DNA of 64,000 nt, taken from positions 37,257,351 to 37,321,350 of the forward strand of contig CP141140.1 in assembly GCA_035235625.1 (NCBI GenBank), in the 5' to 3' direction. The position numbers and the translations under genes were made by a program. The stretch is from Saururus chinensis. Taxonomy: Eukaryota > Streptophyta > Magnoliopsida > Piperales > Saururaceae. Each line of letters starts with the position of its first letter. Position 1 is the first letter of the stretch. Positions 7,541-54,000 of the stretch are shown here, in pieces. A model generated the notes under the pieces. The model made no database searches. It saw only the letters and a list, made by a program, of their open reading frames with translations, and was not told where the DNA came from.

Positions 7541-7552
7541 GCTCCGATACCA
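7541..7552 (-). promoter_or_regulatory. Primer binding site, initiator-Met tRNA type
   Basis: The plus strand reads 'gctccgatacca'; its complement TGGTATCGGAGC is the classical primer site for initiator methionine tRNA. It sits two bases from the LTR start at 7555 and shows that the element's internal region runs leftward on the minus strand. Confidence 0.9.
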
Positions 7553-7554
7553 TT

Positions 7555-16961: not shown

Positions 16962-17734
16962 GAATTAATACTAAGTTATGACCAAAAGCTTCTTAGTTAA
17001 TTATGTTTAGATTCACTTACTCTAACAACAAAAAAAGGGACAAGTATATTATGCTAATTCAATTAGATTAATTGCATATAAATTAGGCTCATGTCACTAG
17101 CAAGTAAAAACCCTAACTACCCTGAAGTTCCCCTTAAGGAAAGTAATCACCATAATTGTGCAATTATCTGTTTATGGCTTATGCAATCCCTTAAACACAC
17201 CCAATCAGCACAAAATAGCACCTCTTAGGGTTTCTAGAATTAATAGTTTTCTGTCTAAAAAAATATTGGTGTGAAATTATCAAAATAACCCTAGAGCTAA
17301 TTTGGTCTTTTTACTCACACCAAGACAAAACACCCAGGAATCATCCAATCAGCATGAAAGACCATGAATAATATTCTGGCCAGGAAACATTCAGCCACAC
17401 ACATAGACCTTGTGAATCGACCAAAATGTCCCTAGGGATAAATCAATCAATTTACACTATATTCAATCCTATTAATTAATTAAATTACCAAAAAATAATT
17501 ATTTAAATCTACTAGACTACAAACTATGTGTATGAGCAAAGAGTAATCCAAAAATTTTAATTGGGCAAAACTTCACACGCATTAATTTACTATTTTGCCC
17601 CTAAATGTGCCAAATGCACAAATCCCAATAAATTGACTAATCACAAAAATTCTAGCAATCAAAATATGTCAATCAGTCTCAATTATAGTCAATTTCAATT
17701 CAATAGCAAAAGACCTATCAATAGATCAAGTGTA
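16962..17734 (-). other. Probable leader/LTR of the Copia fossil; no gene seen
   Basis: AT-rich, no coding sequence. By position it should be the 5' leader and perhaps LTR of the minus-strand Copia element, continued after the inserted element at 24515-24622. No primer binding site or LTR end was recognised. Confidence 0.4.
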
Positions 17735-18104
17735 TGTTGTGAATGTCCAATGGGTCTATTATTGGGGTCCACATACTAGTAGGATAGGTTTAAATTATAT
17801 TATTGTGTAATAAGGGCATTTGGGTCAATAGGTAATTAGGGTATTAGTGGTTCTATTTTAATTAAGTAAATGGGCCTTAGGTGCCTATTAGTGAGCCCAC
17901 TTAGTTAGTCTATTTAAGTGTAGGGGTTGTGCCCTAATTTGGATTAATGAATGAATTATCTACTGTCTAATCCTCTTGTCTTCTCCCTTGCCTCTCCCTC
18001 CTGTCCGACGGCCATGCCATTCCCTCTCCATGTTCTTGCCATTCCTGCTCTGCTGCCTTCTCATTACTGGTCAGCTAGGCCGTTGTGGACATCGGTTCAC
18101 AACA
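17735..18104 (+). repeat. 5' LTR of the gene-capturing element
   Basis: 370 bp, TGTTGTGAATGTCC...GGTTCACAACA. It shares with the 3' LTR long stretches such as 'ctagtaggataggttt' and 'gggtattagtggttct'. A TATA-like 'ctatttaag' occurs near 17911, a plausible promoter for the element. Confidence 0.9.
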
Positions 18105-18117
18105 TTGGTATCGGAGC
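18105..18117 (+). promoter_or_regulatory. Primer binding site, initiator-Met tRNA type
   Basis: 'ttggtatcggagc' directly follows the 5' LTR and matches the usual TGGTATC(A/G)GAGC primer site. It supports plus-strand orientation. Confidence 0.9.
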
Positions 18118-18190
18118 GATCGATCCCTGGAATCATCACCTTCGCTCTATCAACTAGTCTGTAGCAACAAATCTTCTCTCATCACTGATC

Positions 18191-18620
18191 TTGCCATCGT
18201 CCCTTTCTTCGTCATCTCTGCTTCGTCATGAAGGGGAAGAAGCCAAAAGAATGAGTCGTAAGAAGATGATGAATAGCGACCATCGCCATCTCTCTGTCGA
18301 GATGGATAGCTACTTCTCCGGTCTCCTTGAACTCACTGTAGATGTTGATGAGGAAACTGTTAGGCGAACACTTGATTGTAAACCACCTACGGTGGATGAC
18401 CCCAGCATCTAGTATGCTCGTCGTCGCAGCAGAACTAGTGGTCCTGCCAGGGATCTACTCTCACGGGCCTCCTCTCACGACTGGATAGAGTGCCCTTTCA
18501 TCCACCCCGGTGAGAAAGCCAGGCGCCGGGTCTGCCTCTTTGCCCACACCACTAAGGAGTTTCACCCACTTTACGTCTCCATGGGCTCTGCAGTTCCCTC
18601 GCCCCGGTCATCTTCCTCAG
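18191..18620 (+). pseudogene. Captured, contracted ankyrin/CCCH (TZF-type) zinc-finger gene fragment
   Basis: In one frame there are three pieces of a plant ankyrin-repeat tandem CCCH zinc-finger protein in correct order. First is an N-terminal stretch 'LLELTVDVDEETVRRTLD' like the LLELAADDD..G.RRAL region before the ankyrin repeats. Then comes 'SHDWIECPFIHPGEKARRR', the conserved SHDWTECPF.HPGE.ARRR block. Then comes 'VCLFAHTTKEFHPLYVSMGS' followed by AVPSPRSSSS, the CRRRVCFFAHTPEELRPLYVSTGSAVPSPRSS block. The ankyrin repeats and the intervening CCCH finger region are absent. Known members are RNA-binding regulators of stress responses; this copy lacks the complete fingers and is unlikely to bind RNA in the normal way. 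It sits inside an LTR element just behind its PBS. The family call is by residue recognition and is strong for the second and third blocks. Confidence 0.82.
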
Positions 18621-19029
18621 CTTTGGTAGTCGCTACTACTACCATGGAGATGGCAGTCGTTGCAACTCCTCCCAGGGTCGCCTTCATCAGCTTCCGCCAT
18701 GGCTAGCCATCTCCACCGTCGTGGCTCCATTGTCCTCCTCCCAGCCAATCGCATCTCCCTTGCCCAGCTGGTCTAGCCCATTGCCAATGGGGCCTTCGCG
18801 CTGAGCCTCGACACCGACTTTGATGGTTGTATATATGAGTCTGATCTGCAAGGTGATGGCAGAATTGCCGATCTCCCTTGCAAAAACGGCTGCCTCCTTA
18901 TGTGCTCCGCCTTCTGCCAAAACCCCGGTCACCTTCTTCTCCTCCGCCTGATCAACTCCCTATTTGTCTACCCCAACACTGCCCGACCTGAGCTGAACCT
19001 GGTCCAAGGGCTGGTCTAGTGCACGGGGG
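18621..19029 (+). other. Interior of the capturing element, unassigned
   Basis: GC-rich and codon-like in composition. The frame of the zinc-finger fragment runs on briefly past its Ser-rich block. After about 18700 I recognise no family. It may be further captured exon sequence. Confidence 0.4.
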
Positions 19030-19734
19030 TGATGGTATTGAAAATGGTTAAAGAAATAGCAAAAGACTTATGCCCTTACCATGGGCGGTCTAATTAACGG
19101 AGTTACACACTACTTTGAGCAAGAGTAAATAGGTAGAACCAAAAGAGTTACTTAAACTCTAAATTAAACCACAAATCTCAAACCCACATACTAATAATCC
19201 ATAGCCAACACACTTGGCTCAAAACAAGGTCTCAAACAAAACTAAAGATATAATATATCACAAGACTGAAACAAGAACCATTCCACGAGGGTTCTAGCAT
19301 CATAACAAAATAATCAGAGAGAGATACAAAATCTAGTGGACTCCACTCCTACTCTCAAGCTCTCCCTGACCTTTCCTTATAAAGAGGATCCTGTCCGACT
19401 GCATGTCACGTAGCCCCAAAATGAAACAAGGAAAGTGGGGTGAGTATAAAAACTCAATAATGGTTCGAATACAACTATAATAATCAGAAAACATGATGGC
19501 ATGGCAATGTAGCAATTCATATCCAAAATTAAAATGCTATACCACTTTCTAATCATTGACTAGCTAAAACTCCTATTTAACCATAAACATAAGAACTACC
19601 TTGCATAAGACATACCTATCAAGTCAAGTCATAAATATTCAAGTTATAACCTAACATGCATCCCACATAGGTATTTGTTCATATCTACTCAAATCAAGCA
19701 TGATAATCCCATAAATCAATAAGAAGTGTCTTTC

Positions 19735-20095
19735 ACACCCTTTTCTGATCATTCAACCATTTCATCTAAACCCGCATAATAGTGTCTCATTTACACACTT
19801 TCTGATCATGCATTTATATCACATAAACCTATATAATAGTGTCTCATTTACACACTTTCTGATCATGCATTTATATCATAAGCCTACATAATAGCGTCTC
19901 ATTCACACACTTTCTGATCATGCATTCATATCACATAAACCTGCATAATAGTGTCTCATTCACACACTTTCTGATCATGCATTTATATCATATAAACCTG
20001 CATGAGATGTATCTCTAACATACATTTCAGATCATGCATCAACATCATATAAACCTGCATGAGATGTATCTCTAACATACATTTTAGATCATACA
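19735..20095. repeat. ~56-bp minisatellite
   Basis: Units begin 'gtgtctcatttacacacttt' and recur at about 19783, 19839, 19894 and 19951, a spacing of 55-57 bp, with two more diverged units to about 20090. Located in the LTR-like insertion. Confidence 0.88.
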
Positions 20096-20225
20096 TTAAC
20101 ATTCTCATTCATCATGCATGTATAAGTGTCTCACACACACTAGTCTAATATGCAAGTCCACTCATAGAGGGAATAAACATGTTCTTCAAGGCCGAAGCCC
20201 TTGAGCAAACCCATACCAAATAAAC

Positions 20226-20520
20226 ATGCTCCTTAAGGCCAACGCCTTCAAGCAACCCCTGTTTCTCAAGGTCAAAGCCTTCGAGCAACCCTTGCTCCTC
20301 AAGGTCAAAGCCTTTGAGCAACTCATGCTCCTCAAGGTCAAAGCCTTCGAGCAACTCATGCTCCTCAAGGTCAAAGCCTTCGAGCAACTCATGCTCCTCA
20401 AGGTCAAAGCCTTCGAGCAACTCATGCTCCTCAAGGTCAAAGCCTTCGAGCAACTCCTACTCATCAAGGTCAAAGCCTTTGAGCAACTCCTGCCCATCAA
20501 GCCTAAACTCCTAGGCAACC
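20226..20520. repeat. 33-bp minisatellite, about nine units
   Basis: The unit is 33 bp, built on 'ctcaaggtcaaagccttcga' plus 'gcaactcatg', repeated head to tail with few differences in the centre and decay at the edges. As the period is divisible by three, several frames on both strands stay open and spell 11-residue repeats (for example LKVKAFEQLML). These open frames are a by-product of the repeat; nothing suggests a protein. Confidence 0.95.
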
Positions 20521-22680
20521 TTGCTTGTCAAGATCGAAGTCCCAAGCAACAATACCTGGTAAGCTGGTGCACTAGGACAAACCGGCTGGATTCTCAGGGT
20601 TTAGATAATCTCAATAACTAATCTCATCCACAAGACAAGTACACAACTCATTCCCACATAACTCAATTTTATTCAACTCAACCTAGGAGTATACATGTTC
20701 CACACAGGACTTAAATCGAAAACATGTCCTTACAGACCAACTAGGTTCCTATTAATTCACCAAGCGATTAATCTGGCATGCAATCTAAACCATTGCATAC
20801 AATCGATTAACTCCGGCAAAACATCGGTAAAACTCATTCATGAAGTCCAATACATGATGTGTGATATCATGATACTACGTGGGTTCCAACACATAGAATG
20901 TACTCTCAATCATCATAATCAAAGCATAATTAACTACAATTTCATAGTAGATTCCCCATCCGTGTGTGTATTCTTGCATAATCTAAGCACATGACCAATG
21001 CTTGACATAAACTCATAAAACAATATACGCCTACTTAAAGACATTCAAAACAATAATTCCTAACTGAAATCAAAGCAAAATCCACTATAAAGCTTAAATC
21101 TATCCATGTGAAATTGAACATTCACTCCCACAAACATGATTTTTCCACACATTAAGCCACAACATAATCATGTCCATTACCCATAAACCATCCTCGAGAA
21201 CACATCTCACCATTTTCCACATAATATCCCTGTTGGAAATATATTCTAATCATAAGAATTCCAACATTCAAAAGTTCAAGGTACTTCAATATCAACATGC
21301 ATAATTATCAACATAATGTGATGCCACATGACCACGCTTAAACACATTCCATAAACTTTCATCATCAATTCTACACCTCCAGTAGCCTAATTTTATCACA
21401 ACACACCTCTCATAACCATTAGAATCATTAGCTGGAGTAAAACATTGAAATAAACATAAATTTCAAAAATAGCAAAACTGTCGTGTAGCCGTTCGATTGC
21501 CTGCAAGGCCATTCGATCGGCTAAACTGAAAATGTGACAAAAATGTAGTGTTGTTGATCAATCAATTGGCCGTTCAATCACCAATATAGCAGTTTTGACC
21601 TTCTTCATTTTGAAAATCAAAACCGATACACCATGAAAACACCTTAAAACTTCCATCCATGGCCTCAAACTCTATCAAAAACTCATCAAACCTTCCATAA
21701 CACTAATCTAAATCATTCTAAAACAAAACCCTAAGAAATCAACGTAAAAGATCAACATTTATTAAACCCACCATTAGAGGTCAAATCAAGCAAATCCCAT
21801 TCAAATAAAATCATGAAAAATAACATGTTTACCACCCAAAGCTGAGATTGAAGAATCCATTACCTTTCCTTGTTGATTTGGGTAGGAATGAACCTTCAAT
21901 TTCCTCCAACACCTTCCAAAAACATGATTTTAAGTTAACATACAACTAATCTCAATTTAGCTTTGAGAAATCGAAAGTAAACATTTGATCTAGGGTTTTA
22001 GAAGCCTAAAAATGAGATTTTGAAGATTAAGGCTTGGAGAAGAGAGGTAAAAGAGTAGTTTTATGCTTTCAAAATAGATTAAAACAATGATTGAAGTCAA
22101 GATTAAGAATAGATTAAAAGAAAACCTAGGGTTTAGGCTTGATTAAAAAAGAACACACCTTAATCCCTTTCTAATTTGAGCATAATTCAGTAATTAAGCC
22201 TTAATCGCCCTCTCCTAGCCTATTCTCAAATAGGGAATGGCTCAACCCTTTCTATTTAAAGTAAGGCTTGGGTATACCTAATGAACTAGATGGGGTATAA
22301 ATAGAAATTCTAGCTAAAAATGGATATTTTGAATCAGCACTAATTAAATCCAAAAAAAATCTAAATTTTTTTATATAAGCTTGTTTAATGCCTGGGTCAA
22401 TTTGGTCTAAAAACCTCAATTTTGCCAAGCCCTAATTTTTAAAAACTTAGCAACAAATCAAAAAATTCCCAAAACTTCAAATTTGACCCAAAACCACTTA
22501 AAACTAATAAATGCAAAGTTGGTTTTTATTAAAACCTTTAGAAAATACTCATATTTAGAAAATCATCCCAATCCAATCAGAATTAATATTAAACCACAGA
22601 AAAGCATTTAAACAAAATGAATTCAAACCAGTTACGATCAAGGATCTTACACTATTTCACTATCGAAAACAGGGGATGTG
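20521..22680. other. No gene seen; AT-rich part of the LTR-like insertion
   Basis: Long AT-rich DNA with short frames lacking family resemblance. Around 21590-22480 it resembles the transcribed and promoter part of a large LTR. Nothing else supportable. Confidence 0.4.
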
Positions 22681-22685
22681 ACCTT

Positions 22686-23210
22686 TCAGCACTCGGGGTC
22701 TTGGAAACGTCTACCATAGCTAGCTCTCGGTGGCTCATCCTCCTCCAGTGACCACCCATCGAGCCCCACTGTCGTAGCTTCATTGTCTTTCCTTTGTCCA
22801 ATGGCTTGATTAAGTCTATACCAGCAGCCAAACCTCCAAAGTTGGGGCCTTTCCAGCAGTGGCCCCATCGCCTGAAGCCCGGCCTCCTCCTCCGTCATTG
22901 CCGGATCACTACCATCCCAAAACAAAGCCACAGTACTGCCTTCTCTATGGATTGTCACTTCAACCCGATTGTGTTGGCCCTCTATCGGCAGCTTGTTGCG
23001 CTGGAGAAGGGGATCACATTGGTGGTGGACAACATGTTCGCACCCATGGAGGTGTCCCCGGCCAAGCTTGGGGTGGACGTCGTGGTACACAGTAGAATCT
23101 CCAAGTACATCGGCAGCGATGGCGTGGGCCTTCTTTGCGGCAGCGGTCTTCTTTGGCTTGGCCATGGGGGTGGAGGCGGCGGCCTCATGGGTGTCTCTGG
23201 TGGATGCCAT
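22686..23210 (-). other. 174-codon open frame antisense to the lyase fragment
   Basis: A minus-strand open frame starting MASTRDTHEAAASTPMAKPK and rich in Ala/Lys at its start. It overlaps the plus-strand lyase-like segment. In GC-rich DNA antisense frames often stay open by chance, and the plus strand carries the recognisable motif, so this is probably a shadow. The plausible N-terminus means it cannot be excluded as part of another captured gene. Confidence 0.25.
22956..23124 (+). pseudogene. Captured methionine gamma-lyase-like fragment
   Basis: The plus-strand frame reads HFNPIVLALYRQLVALEKG, then ITLVVDNMFAPMEVSPAKLG, then VDVVVHS.ISKYIG. In plant methionine gamma-lyase the corresponding blocks are HFNPTVLNLSRQMAALEG and VTVVVDNTFAPMVLSPAKLGADVVVHSISKFISGG; the second block includes the PLP-binding lysine in SISK. 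The roughly 120 residues that lie between the two blocks in the enzyme are absent here, and the join falls where both blocks carry a similar EG/EKG. The enzyme splits methionine into methanethiol, ammonia and 2-oxobutyrate in the cytosol; this fragment is too short to do so. It lies within the LTR element 17735-24509. Confidence 0.78.
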
Positions 23211-23239
23211 GGAAGGAGATCATAGGAGTGTCGCAAGCT

Positions 23240-24182
23240 GAGAATCGAGAGACAGAGCTTGAACTGGATCTTCCAAGAGATGGCCCTGGTGAAGGGGGAT
23301 TTTATTTCCTATGTGGGTTTGATTTCCACTCACCGTAGTTGGAGATTTTCCACTGCTCACCATCAAAATCTCTAGTGATTCACCAGCAAAGGGGACTCTG
23401 GTGTTGCTGGAATTCCGGTGCCTACCTAAGATTTGCTGGATTCCAATCTAGTAGCGCCCAAATTGAGATCCACTTTCCCTTCACCCCTGGCGAAAATCTT
23501 GGCTTGCATCCCTATTTTCACTAGGTTCCCACAAGGAGTTATGCAAGACAGACATGCCTTATTGTGTCCGCTTGACACTCACACAATATGTGTGTGTCGT
23601 GGGTTATACTAGAACTTGGCAATCCTTCTGCATGGACTTTGCGTGAGTCTGACCCTACTCGGATCTAGATGCAGCTTCATACATGGGTTGGGCTTCCCGT
23701 TGGCTCTAAAATTTTGGTGGCCACATGGGTCCATTACTTCACCTATGTTCAATGTTGTTGCACTGCTGATGCCTTTGCTGATTGCTGCCTTCAGTATTTA
23801 TCTTACCTTGATGCAGTCTCATGCCCTCTGTGGGCAATCTTGGGGTGCCCTATAGTCCTTATGGTGACCCCTCTTGTTGGAGACCATGAAGGCACTCCAC
23901 ATTGTCCTGCACCAACATTGTTCCCTTGCTCTGCCACCTCCTTAATCTTCCGTCTCTACCGACTATAGCTATACCTTGCCCTTGGGTTCAGTTAACTGCA
24001 CTTCCATCATGTTTGTGCTGGCTTATGCGCGTCTGCTTTTGAGTAATGACCCATTATCTCCATCATTCTACATGTCTCATCCACAGTTTTGGACCGGCTG
24101 TTCACAGTGGAGCTTTGGTTGGCCTGATGCTTGGAGTTTTAGGGCCACCTCAAGGACGAGGTGATGCGGAAGCATGGTGGAA
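23240..24182 (+). other. 3' interior of the capturing element
   Basis: GC-moderate DNA with several short open frames but no recognised domain. The last 80 bases before the 3' LTR resemble the end of a Ty3/Gypsy pol region and a short purine-rich tract ('gcggaagcatggtggaa'), a plausible polypurine tract. Confidence 0.4.
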
Positions 24183-24509
24183 TGTTGTGAACGTCCTAAG
24201 GGTCTATTCATGGGGCCCACATGCTAGTAGGATAGGTTTTAATTATATTATTGTGTAATAAGGGCATTTAGGTCAATAGGTAATTAGGGTATTAGTGGTT
24301 CTCTTTTAATTAAGTAAATGGGCTTTCGGTGCCTGTTAGTGAGCCTACTTAGTTATTCTATTTAAGTGTAAGGGCAATGCCCTAATTTGGATTAATATAT
24401 CAATTATCTACTGTCTAATCCTCTTGTCTTCTCCCCTTTCCCGGCCTTCCTGCGCCGCTCCCTTTTCGTTACCGGTCAGCCAAACCGTTGTGGACATCAG
24501 TTCACAACA
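24183..24509 (+). repeat. 3' LTR of the gene-capturing element
   Basis: 327 bp, TGTTGTGAACGTCC...AGTTCACAACA, followed by the target duplication GTGTA. It is shorter than the 5' LTR mainly near its end. Confidence 0.9.
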
Positions 24510-24622
24510 GTGTATTAATCAAATTAGGGCCCTTTCAAGCATCAAAACCCTAAATAGGGTAAAAAGATCCAATCTTTATGCAAATCAGTGACTTATTCCC
24601 CTAACCTAGGCTTCGATAATAC

Positions 24623-25632
24623 TGTAGAGTGGTTAAACAGCAAAAAGGGTGGCGGTCCTTAGGCCAAGGATGGGCACAGAACATAAAAATCCTTTCTTTT
24701 GAATGATTAACTACACAGGAGGCATAATCATGCAATCACATAAGCAATAAACATGAAATCTTGGGCATGCATATCATCAAAATGAAATTAAGGAGCAAAT
24801 ATAAACTGTCCTTGGGCTGATCACCCCCTTGGATGTTCTCAAGCCTTCACACAGTTGTTTGATCACAATTGTAACTCAATTAATCAATCAAAGGAAGGGG
24901 TTATTACCTCTTATGTGTAGATACCTCTTGAAACCTTCTTCTTGGATGAAAATCATAGAAAGGAGGGCTTGCCAAGCCTTGTCTTTGAAGCCCCAACCAG
25001 CAAGGAGAGAGATCTCCTTCAAGCACCCTGTCCAAGAGAAGGAAGAGAGGAGAAAGAGGGGGTGGCCAGCAGGTTTTCTCTCCAAAACCTAGAGAGGAGA
25101 CGCACTAAGCAAGGGAGAAGGGGGTGGATTGGGAGGAGAGAGGAGAGGAGAGTGGGGTGGCACACTTAGGGAATCCTCTCCCTCTTCTCTCCCTTTTATA
25201 GCCCTCTTGATCTGCTCTTAATTGGGCTTCTTAAACGGGCTTTATTGGTTGGACCCCTTGCTGAAATTTCCGAGTTCTTCTTAGAGGGTCTGACACAATG
25301 GGAGCATGCTCTGCTCCTCAAAGCCCAAGGGGGCCCAGACCCCCTACACACGGCTAATCCCGTGACATGCTGGACCCCTTCCTAACTATAGCTCTGACCA
25401 TCGACACTTAATTCGTGAGTCGGGACCCACAACATGTTAATACACATCTTAGTCATATGCCTAGTGTGCATGTATGACGAATATGGGTCCCATTAGAATT
25501 TGTGTCATTATAGCTCATGTGGGGTCGGCATGACCGCCCCCACTAACCTTGGACCCCCTGGCCGGTACTGGCTCACCCAAATCACGAATAACATAGACCA
25601 AAATGGGCCCTAACCCATACCCTGGTCCAACA
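24623..25632 (-). mobile_element. Solo LTR, family 'TGTTGGACC' (copy A)
   Basis: Read on the minus strand it begins TGTTGGACCAGGG and ends CCACTCTACA. It matches four other copies in this window through the GC-rich 'ccggctcaccc'-type segment, a GA-rich stretch and a TATA-like box ('ccttttata' on the plus strand near 25193). No internal retroelement domains adjoin it. Flanks AATAC and CTTAC agree at three of five positions, a possible decayed duplication. Confidence 0.85.
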
Positions 25633-26601: not shown

Positions 26602-26930
26602 TGTTGTGCAAGATCACCTGGACTACTTATTTTCCTTTTATTGCATTGTATTAGACTACTTTTATATTTCCTTCATATTTGCTTATGTAATAGGATAAAT
26701 AACTATATTTGGTCAGCTAGTGGTCCATGGGATAGTCGGGCCCACTAGCTAGTGCGGCTCCCTAGGAGAGAGGGCACGACTCCCTATAAGGGTCGTCCCC
26801 TACCTTGTTTCTTGCTTATGCAATTGAATATTCAGAACTTCTCCCCTTTCTTCTTCTTCTTCTTCTTCTTCTCTTCCCTTTCCCTACGTGAGAGTTTAAG
26901 GTACCATTTGTGCCCATATCAGGCACAACA
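26602..26930 (+). repeat. 5' LTR of the nested Gypsy fossil
   Basis: TGTTGTGCAAGATCACC...AGGCACAACA, 329 bp, containing a (TTC)n stretch near 26850. Mirrored by the split 3' LTR. Confidence 0.92.
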
Positions 26931-26944
26931 TTGGTATTGGAGCC
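26931..26944 (+). promoter_or_regulatory. Primer binding site, initiator-Met tRNA type
   Basis: 'ttggtattggagcc' immediately follows the 5' LTR; one base from the consensus TGGTATCGGAGC. Confidence 0.88.
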
Positions 26945-29900
26945 TTCACGATCCCCGGCCATGGCGCGATGCACGCAACTCGCCACGGGCCCAGGAGCTT
27001 AGCCCAAGAAGGAGGCCGAAGCTTTAGTGGACAGTCCCAAAACTGCCTTGGAGACCATCAGCACTCCTACCCTAGCGTAGATTATGGCCGTTGCGTAGCT
27101 CTAGGCAAGTCCTTCAGTTCCATTAGTGCCTCTCCTCTCTAGACCACCAATCGCGAACATGAACAAGGGTCGTAGGCACTGGAACAGCACTGCCCAAGCA
27201 CCCAGGCAGTGGCAGAAAGGGAGACGCGTATTCCACAGGCTCCTCTGCGCTTTGGCACCATCAACCATGCTGGAGAAGGGAGGCACCAGGCCTGGGATAT
27301 ACGAGGCCCACCAGGTGTTCGGGAAAAGTCCCCAATGGTGCTGCCTCCCAGAAACCTTTTCCAAGAGATGTAGGTCGACTAGGATGAGTACTCGGGGCCT
27401 TGCAGAGGACCACGAGGAGGAGCTGAGCCTCGTTTAGCCCGCCTGTAGTTCCCTTGTTACAATGGGGATGACAACCCAGTAGAGTGGTTGTACATGGCTG
27501 AGAAATTTTTTACCTACCAGGGAATGTACTCCAAGGCTGAATGACTATGCATAGCTTCAGGAAGGAGGTGTGTTACCCCACTTGCATCGCCTTCTCTGAC
27601 GAGCTATGAATACAGTTTGGCCCCAACGAATTCAAGGATTTCAACAAGATGCTCTCAATGTTGTGCCAAACAACCACCATCTGGGCCTATTACACGGAGT
27701 TCATGAAGGTGGTAACCGCCTTCCCGACTGGACAATGGCAGCCTTGGTGGTTACATTCAAGAGAGGTCTTAAGCCTGAGATTTCTAAGGAGATGTGCCAT
27801 TCCCATGCGCCAGTATGCGAGACATCGTGCGGCATGCATGAATTGAGGAGGAGAAGTTGGTCCAACAATGGAGAGGGGGGTGGCTTGGGCCCTTCCCACA
27901 TTCCAATGTCAGCGCTAGCCCCCTTGCTGCCTTGTCTAGCAGCCCAGTGCTAGGCTGACTCGGCCAATAGCCCCCTTCGTCAAGCCAGATTGTTCGTCGT
28001 CTTACACTAGCACATATGGAGGAGCGTCGGTCCAAGGGACTATGTTTCTATTGTGATGAAAAGTTTGTTCCAGGACACTGTTGCTTTGTCAAAGGCAGCC
28101 TCCTCGTTGAGGAGACCGAGGAGGAAGGCATGGTGGATAGGGCCTACTCTTCCCACTATGATGATGTGTTGTCCATGATTTCTGTGCATGCCTTTTCAAG
28201 GGCATTCACTCCTCCTGCGAAGCGGATTCAAGGCCACCTCAAGTGGCAGCAAGTGGCCATCTTGATCGATAGTGGTTTCACCCACAACTTCATCAATGAT
28301 AAGGTGGCTCAGCGTCTTGGCTGCTTCGTGTCCGATTTAAAGCCCTTTGATGTTTTGATTGGTGATAGGACACATCTCAGGAGCTCTGGAGTATGTGCTC
28401 AGGCCGCCCTCACCATCTAGGGCAAGACCTTCATCACCGACCTCTTCTTGCTTCCTACAAAGGGGGCAGACGTGGTGTTAGGGGTTCAGTGGCTACAGGA
28501 GCTCTGTGATATGGTCTGGAACTTCAGAGATATGGTTATGGACTTTGAGGTTCAGGGGCAGTGGGTTTGGATTGAAGGATCTTGGCCGGGCACCCTTCTC
28601 TCAGCCTAGTCGCGTGAGTTCTTTTTTCTGGTTCGTACCCCACGGGTTCCTCTTGCAACAGCGGGCAACAATCGAGGTGCCTCAAGATAAGCTGCCTCCG
28701 GATCTTCTTGATTTATTGGTGAGGCATCAGGAGGTGTTACTTTAGCCTACTTCAGCCAGGCTTTGGTTGGCCGCTCCTTGTCCTTGTCCATTTACGAGAA
28801 GGAGATGTTGGCTATTGTCCTCACCGTTAACAAATGGCAGCCTTACTTGCTAGGCCGCATATTTCTCACCCGCACTGACCACCAGCACCTAAAGTACTTC
28901 CTTGAGCAAAGGGTGTCCACTCCAGCATAGCAATGGTGGGTTAGTAGTACTTGGGTATGATTATGAGGTTGTTTACAAGAAAGGGTCGGAAAACACTGTG
29001 GCCAATGCCATTTCTCGTAACTCTACTTCCGGTTCATGCTTGGCTATTTTTACTCCGTCCTACCCCTTCATTTATGAGTTGAGGTAGGTATACATTGAGG
29101 ATCCTCCGACACAGACCTTGATTACAGCTCTCTAGGCCGAACCGGGCTGCTTGTCCCTTCTTTTTGTGGCGGGATAACCTGCTCTTTTGGAAGGACCGTC
29201 TTGGGGTACTGGATGTTGATGATCTTTGCCAACACATTCTCTCCCACTTCCATGACACTCTAGTGGCTGGTCATGAAGGTGCATTCTACACCTATAAGTC
29301 GGTCAGCCAAAAGCTTTATGTGGCAGGGTATTCACCGGGCCATTCAGGAGTATGTTGCCACTTGTAATGTATGTCAGAGAGCTAAGGCTGCCATGATGTC
29401 TCCTGCCGGTTTGCTTCAACCGTTACCCATTCCTGACAAGTTTTGGGAGGATGTTTCAATAGACTTCATGGAGGCCTTGCCCGTAGTGCAAGGCAAGTCA
29501 ATGATTCTGGTGGTGGTGGACAAGTTGTCCAAGTATGCTCACTTTTGTGCTTTGCGCCATCCATTCACCGTCAAGACAGTGGCAAAGCTCTATGTGCGGG
29601 AGGTAGCCAAACTCCACGGCATGCCTTGCACTATTGTATCGAACTGAGATAGGATCTTCATCTCTCAGTTCTGGCGGGAGTTCTTCGATTTCTAGGGCAC
29701 TCCACATGAGCACCGTTTATCACCCACAAACAGATGGTCAGACAGAAGTGGTGAACCATTATTTGGAGCAGTATCTCCGCTATTTCACTATGTCTCAGGC
29801 TCTCCGGTGGCTCCAACTTCTTCCATGGGTGGAGTGGTCGTACAACACCATCTTTCACACTCGCATGGGGTTTACTCCTTTTGAGTTAATGTATGGCCTC

Positions 29901-30555
29901 CCACCTTCGACCGTGTTATCTTATGTTCCTCACCTCCCCTCTGTGGCTGAGGTTCTTCGTCAGCTTAAGGAGAACTTGTCCTCTCCTCAGAACCAGATGA
30001 AGCAAATTTATGATGGCCATCGCACTGATAGGGAGTTTGTGGTGGGTGACTTGGTTTATGTCTCCGTTCTTCCTTAGTGCCAGACATCCTTGTTTTAGTC
30101 TGAGCATTCCAAGCTTGTCCCTTGTTTCCATGGTCCATATGCTATGGTGGATCATATCGACCCGATGGCTTATTGCCTTGCTCTAAAGCCTGACTTTTTG
30201 TCCACCCTGTCTTCCACGTTTCCAGGCACTGTTGTTGTATAGGTGATGCCTCCCTCGCCACTAATGTTCCACCACCTCCTTTGATGGGACCGGTCCATCC
30301 TTCTATTCTTGTTCCAGCCTTGGTGCTTGATTAGTGTCAGATCCATTGTTCGGGTCATATCATTATAGAGGTGCTCGTTTCTTGGCAGGGCCAGTCTCTG
30401 GAGGATGCTACGTGGCTCTCTAGGGACAAGTTCATGACTCGCTACTCGGCTTGGTCACCTTAAGATCAAGGCGAATAGCAGAAGCGTGGTAGAGTGTTGT
30501 GCATGATCACCTAAACTACTTATTTTCCTTTTATTGCATTGTAGTAGACTACTTT

Positions 30556-33953: not shown

Positions 33954-34217
33954 ACTTTCTTTTATATTTCCTTCATATTTGTTTATGTAATAGGATAAAT
34001 AACTGTATTTGGCCAGCTAGTGGCTCACAGGATAGTTGGGCCCACTAGCTGGCACAGATCCCTAGGAGAGAGGATGCAACTCCCTATAAGGGTCGTCCCC
34101 TGCCTTGTTTCTTGCTTATGCAATTGAATATTCAGAACTTCTCCCTTTTTTCTTCTTCTCTTCCCTTTCCCTGCGTGAGAGTTCAAGGTACCGTTTGTGC
34201 CCATATCGGGCATAACT

Positions 34218-34545
34218 TGGTGGCATGATGACGGTGGCGGGGCTGGTGGTAGTGAAGGCGATGACGGTTGTGGGAGTAGTGGCAGTGGTAGTTGCGGTGG
34301 CGGTGGTGGTGATGGTGGCGGCAGTGACAGTAGGGGTAGTGGCAATGGTGGTAGTAGTGGTGGTGGCGGTAGTCGTTGTGGTAGTAGTGGTAGCAGCGGT
34401 GGTGGTGATGGCGGTAGTGGTGGCGGGGGTGGTGATGGCAGCAGTGACGGTGACAGTAGTAATGGTGGTGGCGACAGCGGTGGTGGCAGTAGCGGTGGTG
34501 GTAGTGGAGGCGGTGACAATGATGATGGTGGTAGTAGCGGTAAGA
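34218..34545. repeat. GGT/GGC trinucleotide block, right half
   Basis: Continuation of the block at 26353-26601; together nearly 580 bases of imperfect GGT/GGC/AGT triplets forming the core of the MULE. All six frames stay open for 110-160 codons, which reflects triplet periodicity rather than a gene. Confidence 0.92.
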
Positions 34546-36050: not shown

Positions 36051-37001
36051 CTGACTGGCTTAAGCGTGGCAGTCACGAGCCTAGGAGGTGGCGCACCAAT
36101 CAAAAATCAAAGTTTTATGACAATCTACACTCAAACATGCATATATACACACATATATAAGCAATGAACTATTAATCAAAGAGTATGCATAATATGAAAT
36201 TGAATTAATGAGCAAAGACGTACTAACCTTAAAGGAATCGAGTGGGGAGAAAATAAATGTCTTGTATGTGTTGATCCCTCAAAGCCTTCACTCTTGGAAG
36301 CAAAACCTAATAGAATGGCGAACCAAAACCTTCTTCTTCAAGCACCAACACTAGCAAGGGAATGAATCCCTCTCTTTCACCATGTCCAAGAAGGAAGAGA
36401 GGAGGAGTTAGGGGGCGGCCAACAAGGGTTTCACCAAAAAAACCTAGAGAGGAGGCCAAACCACAAGGGAAGAGAGGGCCGGATTGGGAGAAGGGAGAGG
36501 AGAGGAGTGGGGCAGATTGAATTAGGGCTCCTCTCCCTCTTCTTTATCTTTAAATACTCCTCTTCTTTTCTCCAATTAAGCTGAGCTTAGATTAGGCTTT
36601 TGGGCTTTCTCGAAATGGACCTTTCCTACTGAGTTTAAAGGCTTATATTAAGAGGGTCATACACAACGGGAGCAGGCTCTATCTCTCAAAGAGAGAAAGA
36701 GATAGAGCATGCGAAGGCCTGGAACCCCTGCACACGGCCAAGCCCGCGACAGGGTTGACCCCTTGCTAACCACGGGTCCCACCATTGATATATAATTAGC
36801 GCATCTGGGCCCCACAACTTGTTAATGCACATCCTAATTGCCTAGTGTGTGTGTGTAACATAGGTGGGTCCCAACCAAATTAGTGTAATAATGGTTCATG
36901 TGGACCGCCCTCACCACTCTTGGACCCCGTGACTCATACCGGCTCACCCAGATCGATCAATGTAGACTGAAATGGGTCCGAGCCCATACTATCGTCCAAC
37001 A
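36051..37001 (-). mobile_element. Solo LTR, family 'TGTTGGACC' (copy B)
   Basis: The minus strand begins TGTTGGACGATAGTATGGGC and runs through the same modules as the other four copies, including the 'ccggctcacccagatcg' neighbourhood near 36940-36955 and the GA-rich U5-like part. Its terminal few bases are eroded. Flanks GCTCT and GCTCG are a possible decayed duplication. No internal element sequence is attached. Confidence 0.8.
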
Positions 37002-38215: not shown

Positions 38216-38224
38216 CTATTTAAG
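38216..38224 (+). promoter_or_regulatory. TATA-like box of the reductase-like gene
   Basis: 'ctatttaag' is 48 bp upstream of the first in-frame ATG and is followed by a pyrimidine-rich stretch that could hold the transcription start. If correct, the 5' leader is very short, about 20 bases. Confidence 0.45.
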
Positions 38225-38271
38225 CTCTTCTTCTCCCTTCTGCTGCTGCAGTGCAGCCTGATATCATAAAG

Positions 38272-40629
38272 ATGGAAATGGGTCTGTTGCAGAAGTTCGT
38301 GTTCCCGCCCCCGCCGTCGCTCTTCGTCCTGGCCATGTCCTTGGCCAGCTTCCTGGGCATCGCCGGCATCGGCCTCTTGGAGGTCTGTGGGATGCACCTC
38401 CAGTACTCAAAGTTCTGGGACTGGCAGTTGAAGAAGAAGAAGAAGGGAAAGGAGGGGGGGACGGTAGTGGCCAGGAAGGAGAAGAAGTCGGTCTCCAGCA
38501 GAGCGGGGATGGTCGCCATGTACGCCCCGGCGTTTCTCGCCGCCGCGGCCTCTCTGGCGCTCTTCGCAGGAGATAGGTCCTTGAGGTTTTCCCTGCTTGC
38601 TACCGCCGTTTCTGTTCATTTCCTCAAAAGGGTCCTTGAGGTAATCTAAAAAAAACTGCGATTTTGTCCTTCGTCTCGCCGATTTCAGTGCCATTTTCAG
38701 CCAAATTGAACGTCGAATCAGAAATTGAAGTGAACAGAAGAGAGATGAAGGACATGAATTTTTTCTGATATATTTAGAATTGCTGCGCTCCTTTTAAGAA
38801 ATTTTAATGGCACTAACGAAGATAAGTCCTTAAATTATTAGACGAGATGCAACTTGTTCGAACTAAAACTAAAGAATGTATTTTTTTGAGATTTGAGAGG
38901 GGTGAATTTATTTGGGCTTTCAATTTTAAGTGTCAACCATTCAATGTTTTTGATCATGGCTGAGAATGGATGGATCTGCACCACCATAAAGGCAGAAATG
39001 AAGTAAGTCTGTGGGAATGAAAATTGATAGACTTATTGAATTTCTAGAATGGTTTTTACTCATAATGTTTTATAGTAGAGCAAAATTGAATGAATTAAAT
39101 AGTATTCCTTCTGTCCTTCATTAATACTCTATTTGGTTTTTTAAATCAAATTATTATAGTTCTTTTTGAAAAACCAAATGAAGCTATTAATATAGGACAA
39201 AGGGATTAGTTTTAGACTCTCTTAATGATGTTGTGGAGTCTATTTTTCCTCATAAAAGGATCATATCACATACGGTAAATGATAATATATAAGACCTAAT
39301 TGAGTGACTTATGAGTAAGAAAATGTCTGTAGCCAACCAGGGTAATAGACCCCAATGACCTGAAAAGGGGAAGTAGAAGAAGAACCAATATATACTGTTA
39401 ATTATAGAATGTAGGAGAGGAGCCGTAGTTGGGTAGGTTCTATATTGATCCCTTTGATGCTGCAGGATCCTACATGAGGTAAGCTAGGACCTTTGGAGTT
39501 TAGTAATTAGTTTATCTCTATTTTGATATCTAACTGGATACTCCCTCCGTCCTATATTGATAGCTCCATTTGGCAAAAAAAAATTGTTCCATATTAATAG
39601 CTTTATTTTGTTAAATTTAATTAGTTGGGTACTTAAAGAAGGGTATCATAAGCTTATTTTCCGTTCTCTTAGATGTGAGTTTTATCATTTAATAAAAACC
39701 GCTATTTTTCCAAATGTGGCTATTAATATTGGACGGAGGGAGTATTTTCTATTGCTAATAAAGGTTTATGAACTGGTTTCCTTCTTTTCCTATGCTTTGC
39801 ACCAAATACATTTATGTTTTCTTGTTACCTTCTAGCCGAATATGGTTTAGGGGAAATCATGGAAGATACTTGGAGTTTATAAATGATCTCTATATCAACT
39901 CTGTTTCCCTGTAAAAGCAGAAATTTACTTTACTAGGACATTGGATGAATTATTACACAACCATTTTGCATATGATTTATTATTAAGTTGAGGCAATATT
40001 TAATTTCACAGCAATACTACTTGTGCATTCTGCCTTTTTTCTTTCCTTCGTTTCTCCTCTGCTTTGGTCATGTGTACATAAGAAAACATGTTATGCTGCA
40101 TTCTTGTATTGCTTCTGTTTATACCAATTGAGTTATGCTCAAATTTGGTCCCTTGCAGGTCCTGTTTGTTCATAAGTACAGTGGACGCATGATTCTTGAG
40201 TCTGTAGTGATTATTTCGCTGAGTTACTTCCTCTTCTCGGTGACTTCAATTTACAGTCAGTATCTTGCAGATGGACTCCCTGATCCCACCGTGGATGTAA
40301 AATACGCAGGCATCATTTTATTTGTTGTGGGCATGGTAGGAAACTTCTATCACCATTATCTTCTCTCAAAATTGAGAACCAAGGATGATGAAGGTTACAA
40401 AATCCCCAGGGGTGGTCTGTTTAACCTGGTTGTATGCCCCCATTATTTGTTTGAGATTATAGTCTTCATTGGGATCTCCTTCATCTCTCCAACCATCTAC
40501 ACCATCCCCTTCACCTTGGGCACCGCTGTGTACTTGTTGGGGAGGAGTTATGCCACAAGGAAATGGTATTTCACTAAGTTTCCGAATTTTCCCAAGGAAG
40601 TGAAAGCGATGATTCCTTATGTTTTTTGA
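38272..40629 (+). CDS. Steroid 5-alpha-reductase / enoyl-reductase-like membrane protein, two exons
   Basis: Exon 1 is 38272-38640 and exon 2 is 40159-40629, joined in phase 0 across a GT...AG intron, giving about 279 residues (277 if the second ATG at 38278 is used). The N-terminus MEMGLLQKFVFPPPPSLFV and the C-terminal half are those of plant proteins annotated as 3-oxo-5-alpha-steroid 4-dehydrogenase family (the Arabidopsis At5g16010 type). Conserved C-terminal features are GNFYHHYLLSKLR, YKIPRGGLFNLVVCPHYLFE and an end in FPKEVKAMIPYVF, the domain that in steroid 5-alpha-reductases and enoyl-CoA reductases binds NADPH. Five or six membrane segments are visible, so it is probably an ER protein. 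A Lys-rich loop (about residues 47-65) is unusual. The exact substrate is unknown. It is the only intact gene in the window and is surrounded by transposons. Confidence 0.9.
39105..39206. mobile_element. Old Stowaway MITE in the intron
   Basis: Eroded inverted ends 'ttccttctgtccttcattaa' and 'ttaatataggacaaagggat', with TA on each side. The core is short and AT-rich. More decayed than its neighbour at 39541. Confidence 0.75.
39541..39742. mobile_element. Stowaway MITE in the intron, TA target duplication
   Basis: Classic Stowaway ends CTCCCTCCGTCC and GGACGGAGGGAG, 202 bp, flanked by TA at 39539-39540 and 39743-39744. Mariner-type non-autonomous element; it would be mobilised by a Tc1/mariner transposase not found here. 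Confidence 0.96.
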
Positions 40630-42320: not shown

Positions 42321-43356
42321 TGTAGAGTGGCTGTACCAGCGGAAGCGTGGTGGGAGGCGGTTGGCGCACAGATAAAAATCTAATCTTTAAAACAAATCTA
42401 CACCAAATATGCATAATACACAATTGATTAACTAATAAATATTCATCCAAACATGAATCAATTAAAGAGAATTGAAATACAGAACAAATACTAACGGACC
42501 TGGGCGTTCCAGCCCTTACACACTTTCCACGAACCAAATCTTGCATGCCAATCACAAGAATAACAAGTAGAGATTAGAGTTTACCTTTCTAATGTGCAGA
42601 TCCCTCCCAACCTTGCTTGGATGAAGGAAAATCACAGCAAGATTAGCCCCTTTGAACCAGCCAACACGTCCCAACCTAGGAGGAGAGGCTTCTCCTTCTT
42701 TCAGCACGCCAAATCAGTCACGGAGAGGAGAGCAAGAAGGGCAGCCAGCAGCAAAAATCTCCCTTGCTTGAGCAGGCCAAACCAAGAGAGATCATGAGAG
42801 AGAGGGGGGCGGCCAATTGGGAAGAGAGGAGACCCAAAAGAGTGGGGCGGCCCTTGCTTTTGCAACTAGGATTGTCTCCTCTCTTTCTCTCCTTTAAATA
42901 TTTCATCCTTTCCAAATTTTGGCCGGTCTAGAATTGGTTATTTTTAATGGGCTTATATATGGGCTGATTCCAATTGGGCCAACCTACTTAATTTCTTCGG
43001 GTTTTACTGGAGGGTCTTATACAACGGGAGCAGGCTTTGTATCTTAGAACCAGCGGAGGCTTGACCCCCTACACATGGTTAAGCCCGCGACACGGTCGAC
43101 CCCTCGCTAACTACGGGTCTCACCCTCAACACCTAATTTGTACGACTAGGCCCTACAATGTATAAATGCACAACCTAGCGAATGCTTAGTGCGCGTGTGT
43201 GACGTTTATAAGTCCTACTCGAATTATGTGTAACGAAGGTACATGTAGGTTCGGCGCGACAGCCCCACCACCTTTGGACCCCGTGGCCCGTACCGGTTCA
43301 CCTAGACCGCTATATATTGGACCAAACCGGGCTCAAGCCCATACCATGGTCCAACA
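42321..43356 (-). mobile_element. Solo LTR, family 'TGTTGGACC' (copy C)
   Basis: On the minus strand TGTTGGACCATGGTATGGGC...CCACTCTACA. Flanking CTTTG (42316-42320) and CTTCG (43357-43361) agree at four of five positions, an aged target duplication. Same modules as the other copies; a TATA-like 'ctcctttaaatatt' on the plus strand near 42889 marks the promoter region. No internal element sequence. Confidence 0.88.
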
Positions 43357-45642
43357 CTTCGGACCGGAAAAAAAACTGTATAGCAACGGCAATGTACTGA
43401 CTGTTGCTCATACTAAATACTCTTGGCCTTTGTTATCATAAATACATCTATTTTGAAAAGTGTATACCTATGAATTCAATTAACTGATAAAAATAATGGT
43501 CGATTTTGTTGAGGCAAAAGGTCATATCCAACAAATCAAGGGAAGCCGTCAACAACCATGCATTAGTCATTGCTTAAGGGGGTTAGCGAGTTGAGTTAGT
43601 GAGCAACTGTCATAACCTGGCCCAACGGCTTTCACTAACTTGATTTGATAGAAGGGATTCCACAATTGAGCAACGAATTCAATTTACTTAAAAAAAACAC
43701 AAAATAACGAAGTCAACTGCTAGAATTTATTGCTCGGTGTGTAAAAGAAAAGAGCAAGATTGATATGGGCTGCTGAAGAGCCCAAGAGTGTCTCCAACAA
43801 CATTTCTCAAATTTATATATGTGAACATTTTAACGGTCAGATTTGAAGTGACACATAGGCAGTGTCTCTAACTTCATTGAAGCATGTTTTTTGGTGTGTC
43901 AAATTCGACATACCCAAAAGCAATACTTCAATTCTTTTTCTTTGATTATTTTATTTAAAGCCCCACCTATTTATTCTTTGTCTTTTATTTGTTGTTTACA
44001 TGATTTCATATAAGAAAGAAATATAAATTTGATAAGGTAAAAGTTACTAATAGCCTCGTCTCATATAATTAATATGAGCCTTAACTAATAGCCGTTAGAT
44101 AATATTGAACGGCCCAGTCCAATTAACCTCGGTATTTATTTTCGTCTAGACTCCTTCTAAATTTGTTTGCCTTCCAGCCTCAAATCAGCCTGTCCACTCC
44201 ACTGTCACATCTGGTCGCCGCCTCCACTCCATCTGCAAGCAGTCGACCCCTGGTCTCCCCCTATGCCCCGCAATTGTAGTCTGTCATCACCTTCGCCCCA
44301 CGATCGCAACGCGTCTTCCCCTTCAACCCACCATCGCAGGCTTCATTCCCTCTACCCCACCATTGCATGCCTCGTTACCTCCGCCCCACCATTGCAGGAG
44401 GTTGTCTCCTTGACACCGACAACAAGGACAACTTTTTTATTAAGAAAGCAGGGAACGAGGAGCAAAGCACAGACAATGACTGAAGAGTTTTTCATTCTAC
44501 CCTTGTTGGAGATTCTTAGTAAATTTGGCATATCTTCCTTACATTTACGGAGCTCAAACAGTCAAACTTTCTCTCTTTTTCAAGTTATTATTTTTCTTCA
44601 TTTTGTCTTGGTCTTTGGTGTCTCAATCCGACCACTCCCTGGATTCTACTTCTCGTGGAGTGCCATTGAAGTAGATGTTTCTAAATTTCAGGCTTGGAGT
44701 GGTAAATTCATTGAAGAACGTGACCTCCTTTTGGTGTTAGTGTCATTTATCGGGTTTGAGTTGGCTTGTGGTCGAGGCTGACGTGATGCTTTGTTAGATG
44801 TGAGGTTTGTTGGATTTAAGGTATTGCTCAATGCCATCTTCTTGTTGTTGCACATGAATGATTTTTCGCATTGATACAGATTGTTATGATTTAGTGTGGC
44901 ATAAAAATAGTATCATATCATCTTGGCATTATTGGGAAAATCATATTTCATAGAGGTACTTTATGTTCCTGCCCTCATCTCTCTCCCTACTTTATGTTCC
45001 TTTACCTCCTATCCTTATCTTCTTCATATATGTTCCTTTTACTTCTTCCAGTCTTCTAAATCTGCAAATCCTGCCTATAACCCTTGTTTCAACCACGTCA
45101 ACTTCTTTCTTCAGAAAATTGATTCCTATCCTCAAACTACCCGAATGTACTAATTTGCTATCACGAAACCCTTCTTTATTATTCTGCTGCAGAAACCCAA
45201 AATTTCCAGTGTGAAGCCAGTCCTGCCATGACCTCAAACCCATCAATTACTTTATGAACAATATACTGTTTTACTCAAAATACCCATGAACACGAATCCT
45301 CTAATGCCTATTATGTCTTAATCAATCAAATTCAACCAGCCCCTCTTGTGCATTCACTTTGAACCTAACCCCAACCATTTAGAGCTAGGCCCAAACCACC
45401 AGCCCTATTTTTACTAATATATCCAAAGTACCCCTGCAGTCATATATTTCAAAATATCCAATTTACTTCAATACTTGAACTAAACCACACCAGTTACTCA
45501 TCATCTTGGTATCTAGTTTAGTTCAGTCAATGAAAAAAACATCTTGATATCTAGTTTAATTTATGTCAGTATTGCATCATTGAACATTTTTTCCTACTCA
45601 TATTAGTTTTCTATGGTGATATGTTCCTCGCCTTTTCTATAG
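43357..45642. other. No gene supported; one 204-codon open frame
   Basis: AT-rich at both ends with a C-rich stretch at 44170-44420. A plus-strand frame at 44167-44781 is open for 204 codons but has no ATG until 44260, begins with low-complexity Pro/Ser/His sequence and matches nothing I know. I do not call it a gene. Confidence 0.35.
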
Positions 45643-51428: not shown

Positions 51429-52144
51429 CAAAAAATGCCACTAGGATAAAAAAGCAAAGCCAAGAAATGCCATATCTCCCTCAGTCCCCAATAAGTGCCA
51501 CCAGGATCCTCCGACTGCATAATCAGCATTACCATATTAAGAAGAGAACAAAACTGAAGGAGGCAAGGAGCTACAGATTTGTGTACCACTTTGCCAATGA
51601 AGATGAGAAACAAGTCCTTTCTAGCTCCACAAAGGCTGAGACAGTCTCAACATGGCCGTCTACTTCACCCTGCCCAAAACTCTCTCCCTCCTCTGCTTCC
51701 CAAACTGTGCCTATAGCAGCAATCTAAGCATCATACCCAGCTTGGCTGCAGGGGTGGCCTTTTAGTGCCCCTATCATTGCCACCTCCAATTCATATTAGT
51801 TAGTCGGCTCCCCATACAACGTTACTGCCTTGGCTAGTCCATGTGGTCCTCAGCCCTTGAGCCAGTTGCAGGCAACCAGTTTATTCAACCAGCAGCAGGC
51901 CAGCCACTTTGTTTCTCAACATGGCCGTCCCATTCACCCCACCCAAGAGCCTTTCTCACCCCTCCTCCACCCCTTCCTCACCCCCACCCATCATGCCACC
52001 TACCTTCAGACCTCTAGCAGCCGGGATACCCAACATGACATAGAAACAGAGGATTTTGTGCACAGCTTTTGGGATGAGATGAGCAAGTCAAAAGTGACAG
52101 TGGCTGCATAGGCTCCTCCCGGTAGGAACCTTAGTACTTGGTGA
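51429..52144. other. Unassigned segment with two short open frames
   Basis: Lies between truncated MULE copy 1 and a solo LTR. Frames at 51467-51727 and 51830-52111 are rich in Pro/Ser/Gln and show no family I can name. The composition is coding-like, so it may be a gene or retroelement fragment. Confidence 0.35.
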
Positions 52145-53120
52145 TGTTGGACCATGGTATGGGCTCGGGCCCGGTTTGGTCCAACATTGTCTCAGTCCAG
52201 GTGAGCCGGTACGGGCCACAAGGTTTAAGGGTGGTGGGGGCGGTCGCGCCGACCCCACATATGCCATCATTACACTAATTAGAGTGGGACCCACATACAT
52301 CACACACGTACACTAGGCATACGTCTAGGTTGTCCATTAACACGTTGTGGGGCCCAGTTACACAAATTATGTATTGAGGGTAGGACCTGTGGTTTGCGAG
52401 GGGTCGACCTGTTGCAGGCTTGGCCGCGTGCAGGGGGTACAGGCCTCCACAAGGTTTGAGAGACAGAGCCCACTTCCATTGTGTTTGAACCTATAAGAGA
52501 AACCAGAAGGAATTAAGCAAGTTAGCCCATATAGAAAAGCCCACAATTAGGCCCGCCTAAAAGACAAAACAAGAGGGTATTTAAGAGAGAGAAAGAGAGG
52601 AGGAAGCCCTAGCCAAGGGCCTCCCCACTCTCTTCCTCCTCTCCCCCAATTGTCGCCCCTCTCTCTCTTTCACTTGGTTCGGCCTGCACATAGAAGGGAG
52701 AATCCTTGCTGTTGGCCGCCCCAATTCTCCCCTCTCCTTAGTCTCTTTGGCGGGCTGAAAGGAGAAGTCTCCCCTCCTTGGTTGGATTGTGTTGGTTGGT
52801 TCTTTGCTAAGATTTCCTTCATTCCAAGCGCTGGTTTGTGAGGGTTTAACACATAAGGTCCTCTTCCTCTACGTGTTTGTTCTTGTGATTGGCTTGCAAG
52901 GGCTGATCTATTGGAGGGCATGCAAGGGCTGGAACTCCCAAGTCAGTTTGTATTTGATCCAATTTGCATCTTATGGTTGCATGATTCTTTGATTGGATAT
53001 GGTTTATTGCTAATTGATTGTGTATTGTGCATGATTCCTTGTAGATTAAATGAAAGACTGATTTTTTATTGGTGCGCCATCTCCATACCACTGTGCTTCC
53101 GCTGGTCCGACCACTTGACA
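52145..53120 (+). mobile_element. Solo LTR, family 'TGTTGGACC' (copy D, plus strand)
   Basis: TGTTGGACCATGGTATGGGC at the start and GGTCCGACCACTTGACA at the end, the only copy of the five in plus orientation. A TATA-like 'gggtatttaagagag' near 52575 precedes a GA/CT-rich transcribed part. Immediate flanks (GGTGA and GTAAA) do not match, so the target duplication has decayed or one end was rearranged. Confidence 0.85.
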
Positions 53121-53697: not shown

Positions 53698-54000
53698 GGG
53701 AAAATTATTTAAATAATAATTAAAAAAATATTTAGTAATTTGGACCATTTTTCTCAAAGTGGTGTTCTTTTTTGCCTCACAGGCGCTAGACAAGCAGTTG
53801 GCGCCTACATAGCTTTTTAAAAAAAAATTATATGATTTAGTCTTGATTTCATCCTTCTAGAAGGATGAAATCACCTTAAGGTGAGATTTTGTCATTCTAA
53901 ATGACGAAATCCCCATGCTTGGTCAATTTGGCTGTTAGATTTTGAGAATAAAAGACTATTTCTTCCTTTTAAAGGACAAAATTGTCATAATCTTAACCTG
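53698..54000 (+). repeat. Left terminal inverted repeat of MULE copy 2
   Basis: Pairs with 57810-58126. Contains smaller palindromes made of GATTTCGTC-type half-sites, for example 'catccttctagaaggatg' and 'gtcattctaaatgac', so the TIR is itself a series of hairpins. Confidence 0.85.

Follow-up and report, generated by a model that had tools for sequence, protein, structure and literature searches.

Introduction

Gene pick-up by long terminal repeat (LTR) retroelements is uncommon, though cases have been reported in maize, soybean, and pepper. Bs1 of maize carries three transductions from three genes (an ATPase, a xylan endohydrolase, and a beta-1,3-glucanase), none of them full-length (PMC13317346), and GmaRetroS15, a soybean terminal-repeat retrotransposon in miniature (TRIM), contains fragments of three genes, the gene-bearing TRIMs being described as containing exons without introns (PMC4717578). 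In pepper, single LTR elements enclose two or three retroduplicated genes (PMC5664825). A maize survey listed 425 fragment-bearing LTR elements, none of which, under the conditions of that survey, held more than one standard nuclear gene (PMC2774510), and captured genes were put at 672 in rice and 1,343 in sorghum (PMC3726574). Here we describe an element at positions 17735 to 24509 of a 64,000-nucleotide stretch (the window) of Saururus chinensis contig CP141140.1. We consider it quite probable that this is a degenerate, non-autonomous LTR retroelement into which template switching brought mRNA segments of three host genes, and that the copy then decayed.

Like Bs1, this element holds between its LTRs segments of three unrelated host genes (PMC13317346). 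It differs from Bs1 in the genes concerned and in its broken frames, the chimeric gene of Bs1 being transcribed and translated. It resembles GmaRetroS15 as a short non-autonomous LTR element with three gene fragments, but the gene-bearing TRIMs measure 1,172 to 1,449 bp (PMC4717578), versus LTRs of 327 to 370 bp and an interior of about 2.4 kb, a probable nested insert excluded, in the present case. With the pepper elements it shares the presence of multiple genes within one element, although those are annotated genes from a study of NLR genes and here there are fragments only (PMC5664825). A limited literature search, thin on subscription journals, returned no element with the particular trio found here.

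Results

A first-pass annotation of the stretch, made from the letters alone, had placed an element with matched LTRs, an initiator-Met primer binding site, and a perfect GTGTA duplication at 17735 to 24509, and on realignment these coordinates turned out to be exact. The features that delimit the element are the following.

17730 to 17734, no strand: 5' copy of the target-site duplication, GTGTA, a perfect match to the 3' copy
17735 to 18104, plus strand: 5' LTR, 370 bp, TGTTGTGAAT...GTTCACAACA, with TATTTAA at 17911
18106 to 18119, plus strand: primer binding site of the initiator-Met type, TGGTATCGGAGCGA, 12 of 14 bases matching, one base past the 5' LTR
24183 to 24509, plus strand: 3' LTR, 327 bp, TGTTGTGAAC...GTTCACAACA, with TATTTAA at 24359
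24510 to 24514, no strand: 3' copy of the target-site duplication, GTGTA, a perfect match to the 5' copy

Both LTRs have TG...CA ends, as in LTR retrotransposons, and the termini of the 3' LTR form a perfect 10-base inversion (TGTTGTGAAC/GTTCACAACA). The two LTRs align over 327 bases at 89.9% identity, differing by 19 transitions and 14 transversions, and 43 more bases fall in gaps (Kimura two-parameter distance, 0.109). At a rate of 1.3e-8 substitutions per site per year, which we take as applicable, this divergence corresponds very roughly to 4 million years. Random pairs of 5-mers at similar spacing in the same window matched at a rate of 0.00137. The reference for the primer site was what we take to be the complement of the plant initiator-Met tRNA, and no other plus-strand position in the window equaled the 12-of-14 match at 18106 to 18119. 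When a shorter primer pattern was scanned at a tolerance of one mismatch, three matches appeared in the window versus 0.18 expected, and because of this excess the other two, at 7541 to 7553 (minus strand) and 26931 to 26943, probably belong to other elements.

The interior was compared with Pfam in all six frames of three segments (18105 to 19029, 19030 to 22669, and 22669 to 24182), i.e., 18 translations with X at stops and E values up to 1 retained. No domain of reverse transcriptase, integrase, protease, or gag was found among them, which bears out the first-pass description of an interior without recognizable reverse transcriptase or integrase. The gag-pol set of an autonomous Copia or Gypsy element is thus not seen, and no superfamily can be assigned. 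Only four matches were obtained: zf-CCCH_AtC3H23 (3.5e-10), Cys_Met_Meta_PP (1.1e-5), Apolipoprotein (0.0041), and TraI_middle (0.083), the Apolipoprotein match falling on a 33-bp tandem array and scoring far under its cut-off. In the 12 frames of the two outer segments there were two hits below 1e-4, both in the sense direction, and 10 single open frames gave two real matches and three more at E values from 0.096 to 0.23. With Rfam, nothing in the window reached the gathering scores.

Close to the 5' LTR lie pieces of a gene for a CCCH zinc-finger protein, assigned with Pfam and by tblastn with provisional reference sequences of Arabidopsis proteins.

18203 to 18427, plus strand: N-terminal piece, interrupted by one in-frame stop, of a gene for a putative plant ankyrin/CCCH protein of the KS type (reference AtC3H30, E 1.75e-6 in the window; 0 of 1,000 shuffles)
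18461 to 18616, plus strand: CCCH zinc finger 1 fused to the segment past zinc finger 2 (Pfam PF25512, E 7.5e-12; tblastn E 4.35e-12)
18657 to 18704, plus strand: further piece of the CCCH gene (LLPGSPS) in a different frame, its score reached in 1 of 2,000 shuffles
18952 to 19029, plus strand: possible, weak C-terminal piece of the CCCH gene (AtC3H30, score reached in 8 of 1,000 shuffles; a second reference relative did not reproduce it)

The zinc-finger match, to zf-CCCH_AtC3H23, reached 45.2 bits in its single open frame against a cut-off of 27, and the CCCH frame spans 18158 to 18706 with one internal stop. The first three blocks are collinear with the reference protein but include neither its ankyrin repeats nor the greater part of its zinc-finger region; within 18461 to 18616, the alignment skips about 50 residues, from where zinc finger 1 ends to where zinc finger 2 ends. 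The adjacent alignments overlap by 6 nucleotides at 18524 to 18529, as judged by comparison at the protein level only. AtC3H30 was picked as a query only after a more distant CCCH relative had given no significance for the N-terminal block (score reached in 146 of 200 shuffles). The first-pass annotation had named an ankyrin/CCCH fragment here. Its zinc-finger part stands firmly, and the ankyrin type, which we regard as probable, is suggested by the provisional reference proteins and the flanking parts, since no ankyrin repeat is itself present in the piece and the Pfam model is named simply for its likeness to AtC3H23.

Immediately downstream is a fragment that the first-pass annotation had overlooked, which on protein comparison belongs to a gene for chloroplast-type threonine synthase, at about 18687 to 18900.

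18687 to 18833, plus strand: threonine synthase piece, one in-frame stop (phmmer, PDB 1e5x, E 8.6e-13; tblastn with the reference protein, E 7.7e-13)
18841 to 18900, plus strand: probable continuation of threonine synthase past a frameshift, its score reached in 1 of 2,000 shuffles in the collinear place

The best match of 18690 to 19019 among PDB sequences was threonine synthase 1, chloroplastic (1e5x, presumably from Arabidopsis), residues 210 to 245 of the chain aligning with 18726 to 18833 across one stop. From about 18726 onward the piece is firm, whereas its start is weak and overlaps the CCCH piece, so that the two abut or overlap at about 18687 to 18726. The collinear-place test of 18841 to 18900 was designed after the block had been noticed; when the entire interior was taken as the target, its score was reached in 82 of 200 shuffles, which is not significant, and phmmer of 18830 to 19027 alone found nothing among PDB sequences, 18690 to 19019 and 18830 to 19027 being the parts of the left interior that the PDB search covered. 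Domain libraries miss the piece, since NCBIfam thrC gave an E value of only 0.029 and Pfam gave nothing at E values up to 1. Scans of this kind can therefore undercount captured genes: this one came out clearly against the sequence of the solved plant enzyme. It brings the captured genes to three, not two as in the first-pass annotation, whose account of LTRs enclosing fragments of unrelated host genes, with pol undetected, otherwise held. Its expectation that a second captured gene would make an element unusual is not borne out by Bs1, its own example, with three (PMC13317346), or by the pepper elements, with two or three (PMC5664825), yet such capture is uncommon (PMC2774510).

The lyase-like fragment noted near the 3' end was likewise confirmed, as a significant Cys/Met-lyase match (Cys_Met_Meta_PP, E 2.1e-6, 27 bits in a single open frame, a score just at the cut-off).

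22956 to 23006, plus strand: methionine gamma-lyase piece 1 (HFNP...ALE), residues 98 to 114 (0 of 1,000 shuffles; tblastn E 0.049 alone, in the window)
22995 to 23144, plus strand: methionine gamma-lyase piece 2, residues 213 to 264 (Pfam E 2.1e-6; NCBIfam met_gam_lyase E 7.7e-7; tblastn with the reference protein, E 1.6e-12)
23145 to 24182, plus strand: remaining interior, in which Pfam, NCBIfam, and PDB sequences gave no match under E 0.1; the purine stretch that precedes the 3' LTR is weak

The two pieces are joined in frame with about 98 residues missing between them, and their alignments, again compared at the protein level only, overlap by 12 nucleotides (22995 to 23006). Assignment to methionine gamma-lyase rather than to a sister enzyme rests on ranking: this enzyme comes first among PDB matches (best E, 1.9e-4) and in NCBIfam (7.7e-7 versus 3e-6 for the next family, both far under the full-length cut-offs), and the provisional Arabidopsis reference protein agrees. 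In the right interior, only the lyase family fell below E 0.1 in Pfam and NCBIfam, and when its six frames were compared with PDB sequences, no fourth captured gene emerged, nothing falling below E 0.28 (the third plus-strand frame was covered from 23136, the lyase part being scanned separately). With the reference proteins, the leftover regions yielded no extra pieces of the same three genes apart from the weak C-terminal CCCH match.

Antisense to the lyase piece, on the minus strand, lies an open frame of 177 residues (22686 to 23219) with a plausible protein N terminus, MASTRDTHEAAASTPMAKPKK..., and no match in Pfam or NCBIfam. It may be a chance frame or else one more captured piece, the fourth, in inverted orientation.

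That the gene resemblances themselves are due to chance is next to inconceivable. The lyase score only equals its Pfam cut-off, but three libraries gave E values of 7.5e-12, 8.6e-13, and 7.7e-7, and three reversed reference proteins reached at best 0.41 by tblastn in the window.

The junctions bear on another explanation, namely, that this is a dead member of a family that has long persisted, with selection acting on a hybrid open reading frame, as has been argued for Bs1. Three of the five junctions keep the frame (two in CCCH and one in the lyase), and a single internal stop interrupts the CCCH frame; the other two junctions are out of frame. We hold this explanation to be quite unlikely. 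An argument for selection from the in-frame junctions was dropped, since three of five readily arises by chance (binomial estimate, about 0.2).

Between the left and right parts of the interior lies a stretch of a different character, which was missed in the first-pass annotation.

19030 to 22671, no strand: probable nested insertion, TG...CA, with GGGGG/GGGGA flanks, no coding domain, and 57-bp and 33-bp tandem arrays

The GC content of 19030 to 22668 is 0.352, versus 0.541 on the left and 0.512 on the right, with steps at both ends, and the two tandem arrays occupy 19725 to 20501. Terminal inverted repeats were not above those of shuffled sequences (439 of 500 reached the score). With its GC steps, 19030 to 22671 is probably a separate nested insertion, of which a solo LTR is the simplest, though not a proven, reading. 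Since this central 3.6 kb is probably a separate insertion, the original interior would have been about 2.4 kb long.

The insert also bears on the main rival explanation, by which the gene fragments entered as DNA, in separate later insertions (by a Helitron, a Pack-MULE, or break-repair fill-in) into an ordinary non-autonomous LTR element. Nesting evidently can occur here, as 19030 to 22671 is probably another insertion within the element, and pieces of transposase from Mutator-like elements (MULEs) are present elsewhere in the window. Pack-MULEs have long terminal inverted repeats, and Helitrons have TC...CTRR ends and a 3' hairpin. No inverted repeat of at least 30 bp with an exact 14-base seed was found between 17500 and 24800, a search that diverged repeats could escape and that did not extend to Helitron ends. 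The pieces of all three genes, moreover, lie in the sense direction of the LTRs, and the CCCH and threonine synthase pieces abut or overlap, both of which argue against independent entry. Entry as DNA appears unlikely to us.

Several other features were observed in the window. A dispersed repeat occurs at five places (24912 to 25632, 36265 to 37001, 42326 to 43359, 52145 to 53115, and 59279 to 60182), in both orientations and with about 68 to 75% pairwise identity. A probable host gene resembling steroid 5-alpha-reductase lies at 38224 to 40629 (Pfam Steroid_dh, E 3.6e-31 at 40132 to 40629), the upstream frame at 38224 to 38649 having no Pfam match at 0.01. A pair of similar blocks (48780 to 51432 and 53701 to 56211; 76% and 86% identity) is accompanied by MuDR/MULE transposase pieces, detected with Pfam at 50728 to 51279 and 56456 to 56863. 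The pair 26659 to 26935 and 33959 to 34221, 86% identical and with the primer-like site at 26931 to 26943, is perhaps another LTR element; the frames between its members at 27971 to 28420 and 29607 to 30077 look retroelement-like by eye and have no Pfam match at 0.01.

Discussion

The best reading of the interior is that it is partly built of three sense segments of host mRNAs, for a CCCH protein, probably of the ankyrin type, for threonine synthase, and for methionine gamma-lyase. LTR-mediated retroposition has been described as the chance packaging of a host mRNA followed by a template switch, possibly repeated, at microsimilarities (PMC5408686). The Saururus element fits this process in the common sense orientation of its pieces, their sub-gene size, the internal skips at short overlaps, and the lack of pol; the overlaps of 6 and 12 nucleotides are compatible with jumps at short similarities of the kind described there (PMC5408686).

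We infer, as likely, mobilization in trans and the following order of events. RNA of the LTR element and host mRNAs would have been copackaged in particles supplied by an autonomous relative, and the reverse transcriptase would have changed templates several times, skipping within an mRNA as well. The chimeric cDNA would then have integrated, giving rise to the 5-bp duplication, and the copy would have decayed through divergence of its LTRs, in-frame stops, and frameshifts. After integration, an unrelated 3.6-kb element, perhaps a solo LTR, would have inserted itself inside.

A number of points weigh against capture by template switching as set out above. The window holds one copy of the element, so that capture before mobilization and later rearrangement are not separated (searches with LTR patterns in viral and prokaryotic contig collections gave 0 matches, which is uninformative on copy number in the plant). 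The non-autonomous, transcript-sampling family proposed in the first-pass annotation is, from one copy, a conjecture. The mRNA origin is not proven, and several block assignments depend on the provisional reference proteins. The polypurine tract before the 3' LTR is weak, consisting of an interrupted purine stretch ending in GCATGGTGGAA, and 18901 to 19029, 22672 to 22955, and 23145 to 24182 are mostly unexplained. As to the insert, the edge model at 19030 to 22671 scores best but an edge at 19033 is about as good, its flanking repeat is imperfect, and no relatives of it were found in the window. Moreover, the three in-frame junctions out of five are no more than chance would readily give.

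A more far-reaching idea is that of a lineage that has repeatedly captured, along with a CCCH gene, transcripts from the methionine/threonine branch (those for threonine synthase and methionine gamma-lyase), its own transcripts or small RNAs acting back on the donors; we give this very little credence. Multigene capture by LTR elements has been reported but is uncommon, and each well-described case helps to separate template switching from insertion at the DNA level. The three sense pieces of the Saururus element, whose internal skips occur at short overlaps, are in line with template switching that took place repeatedly.

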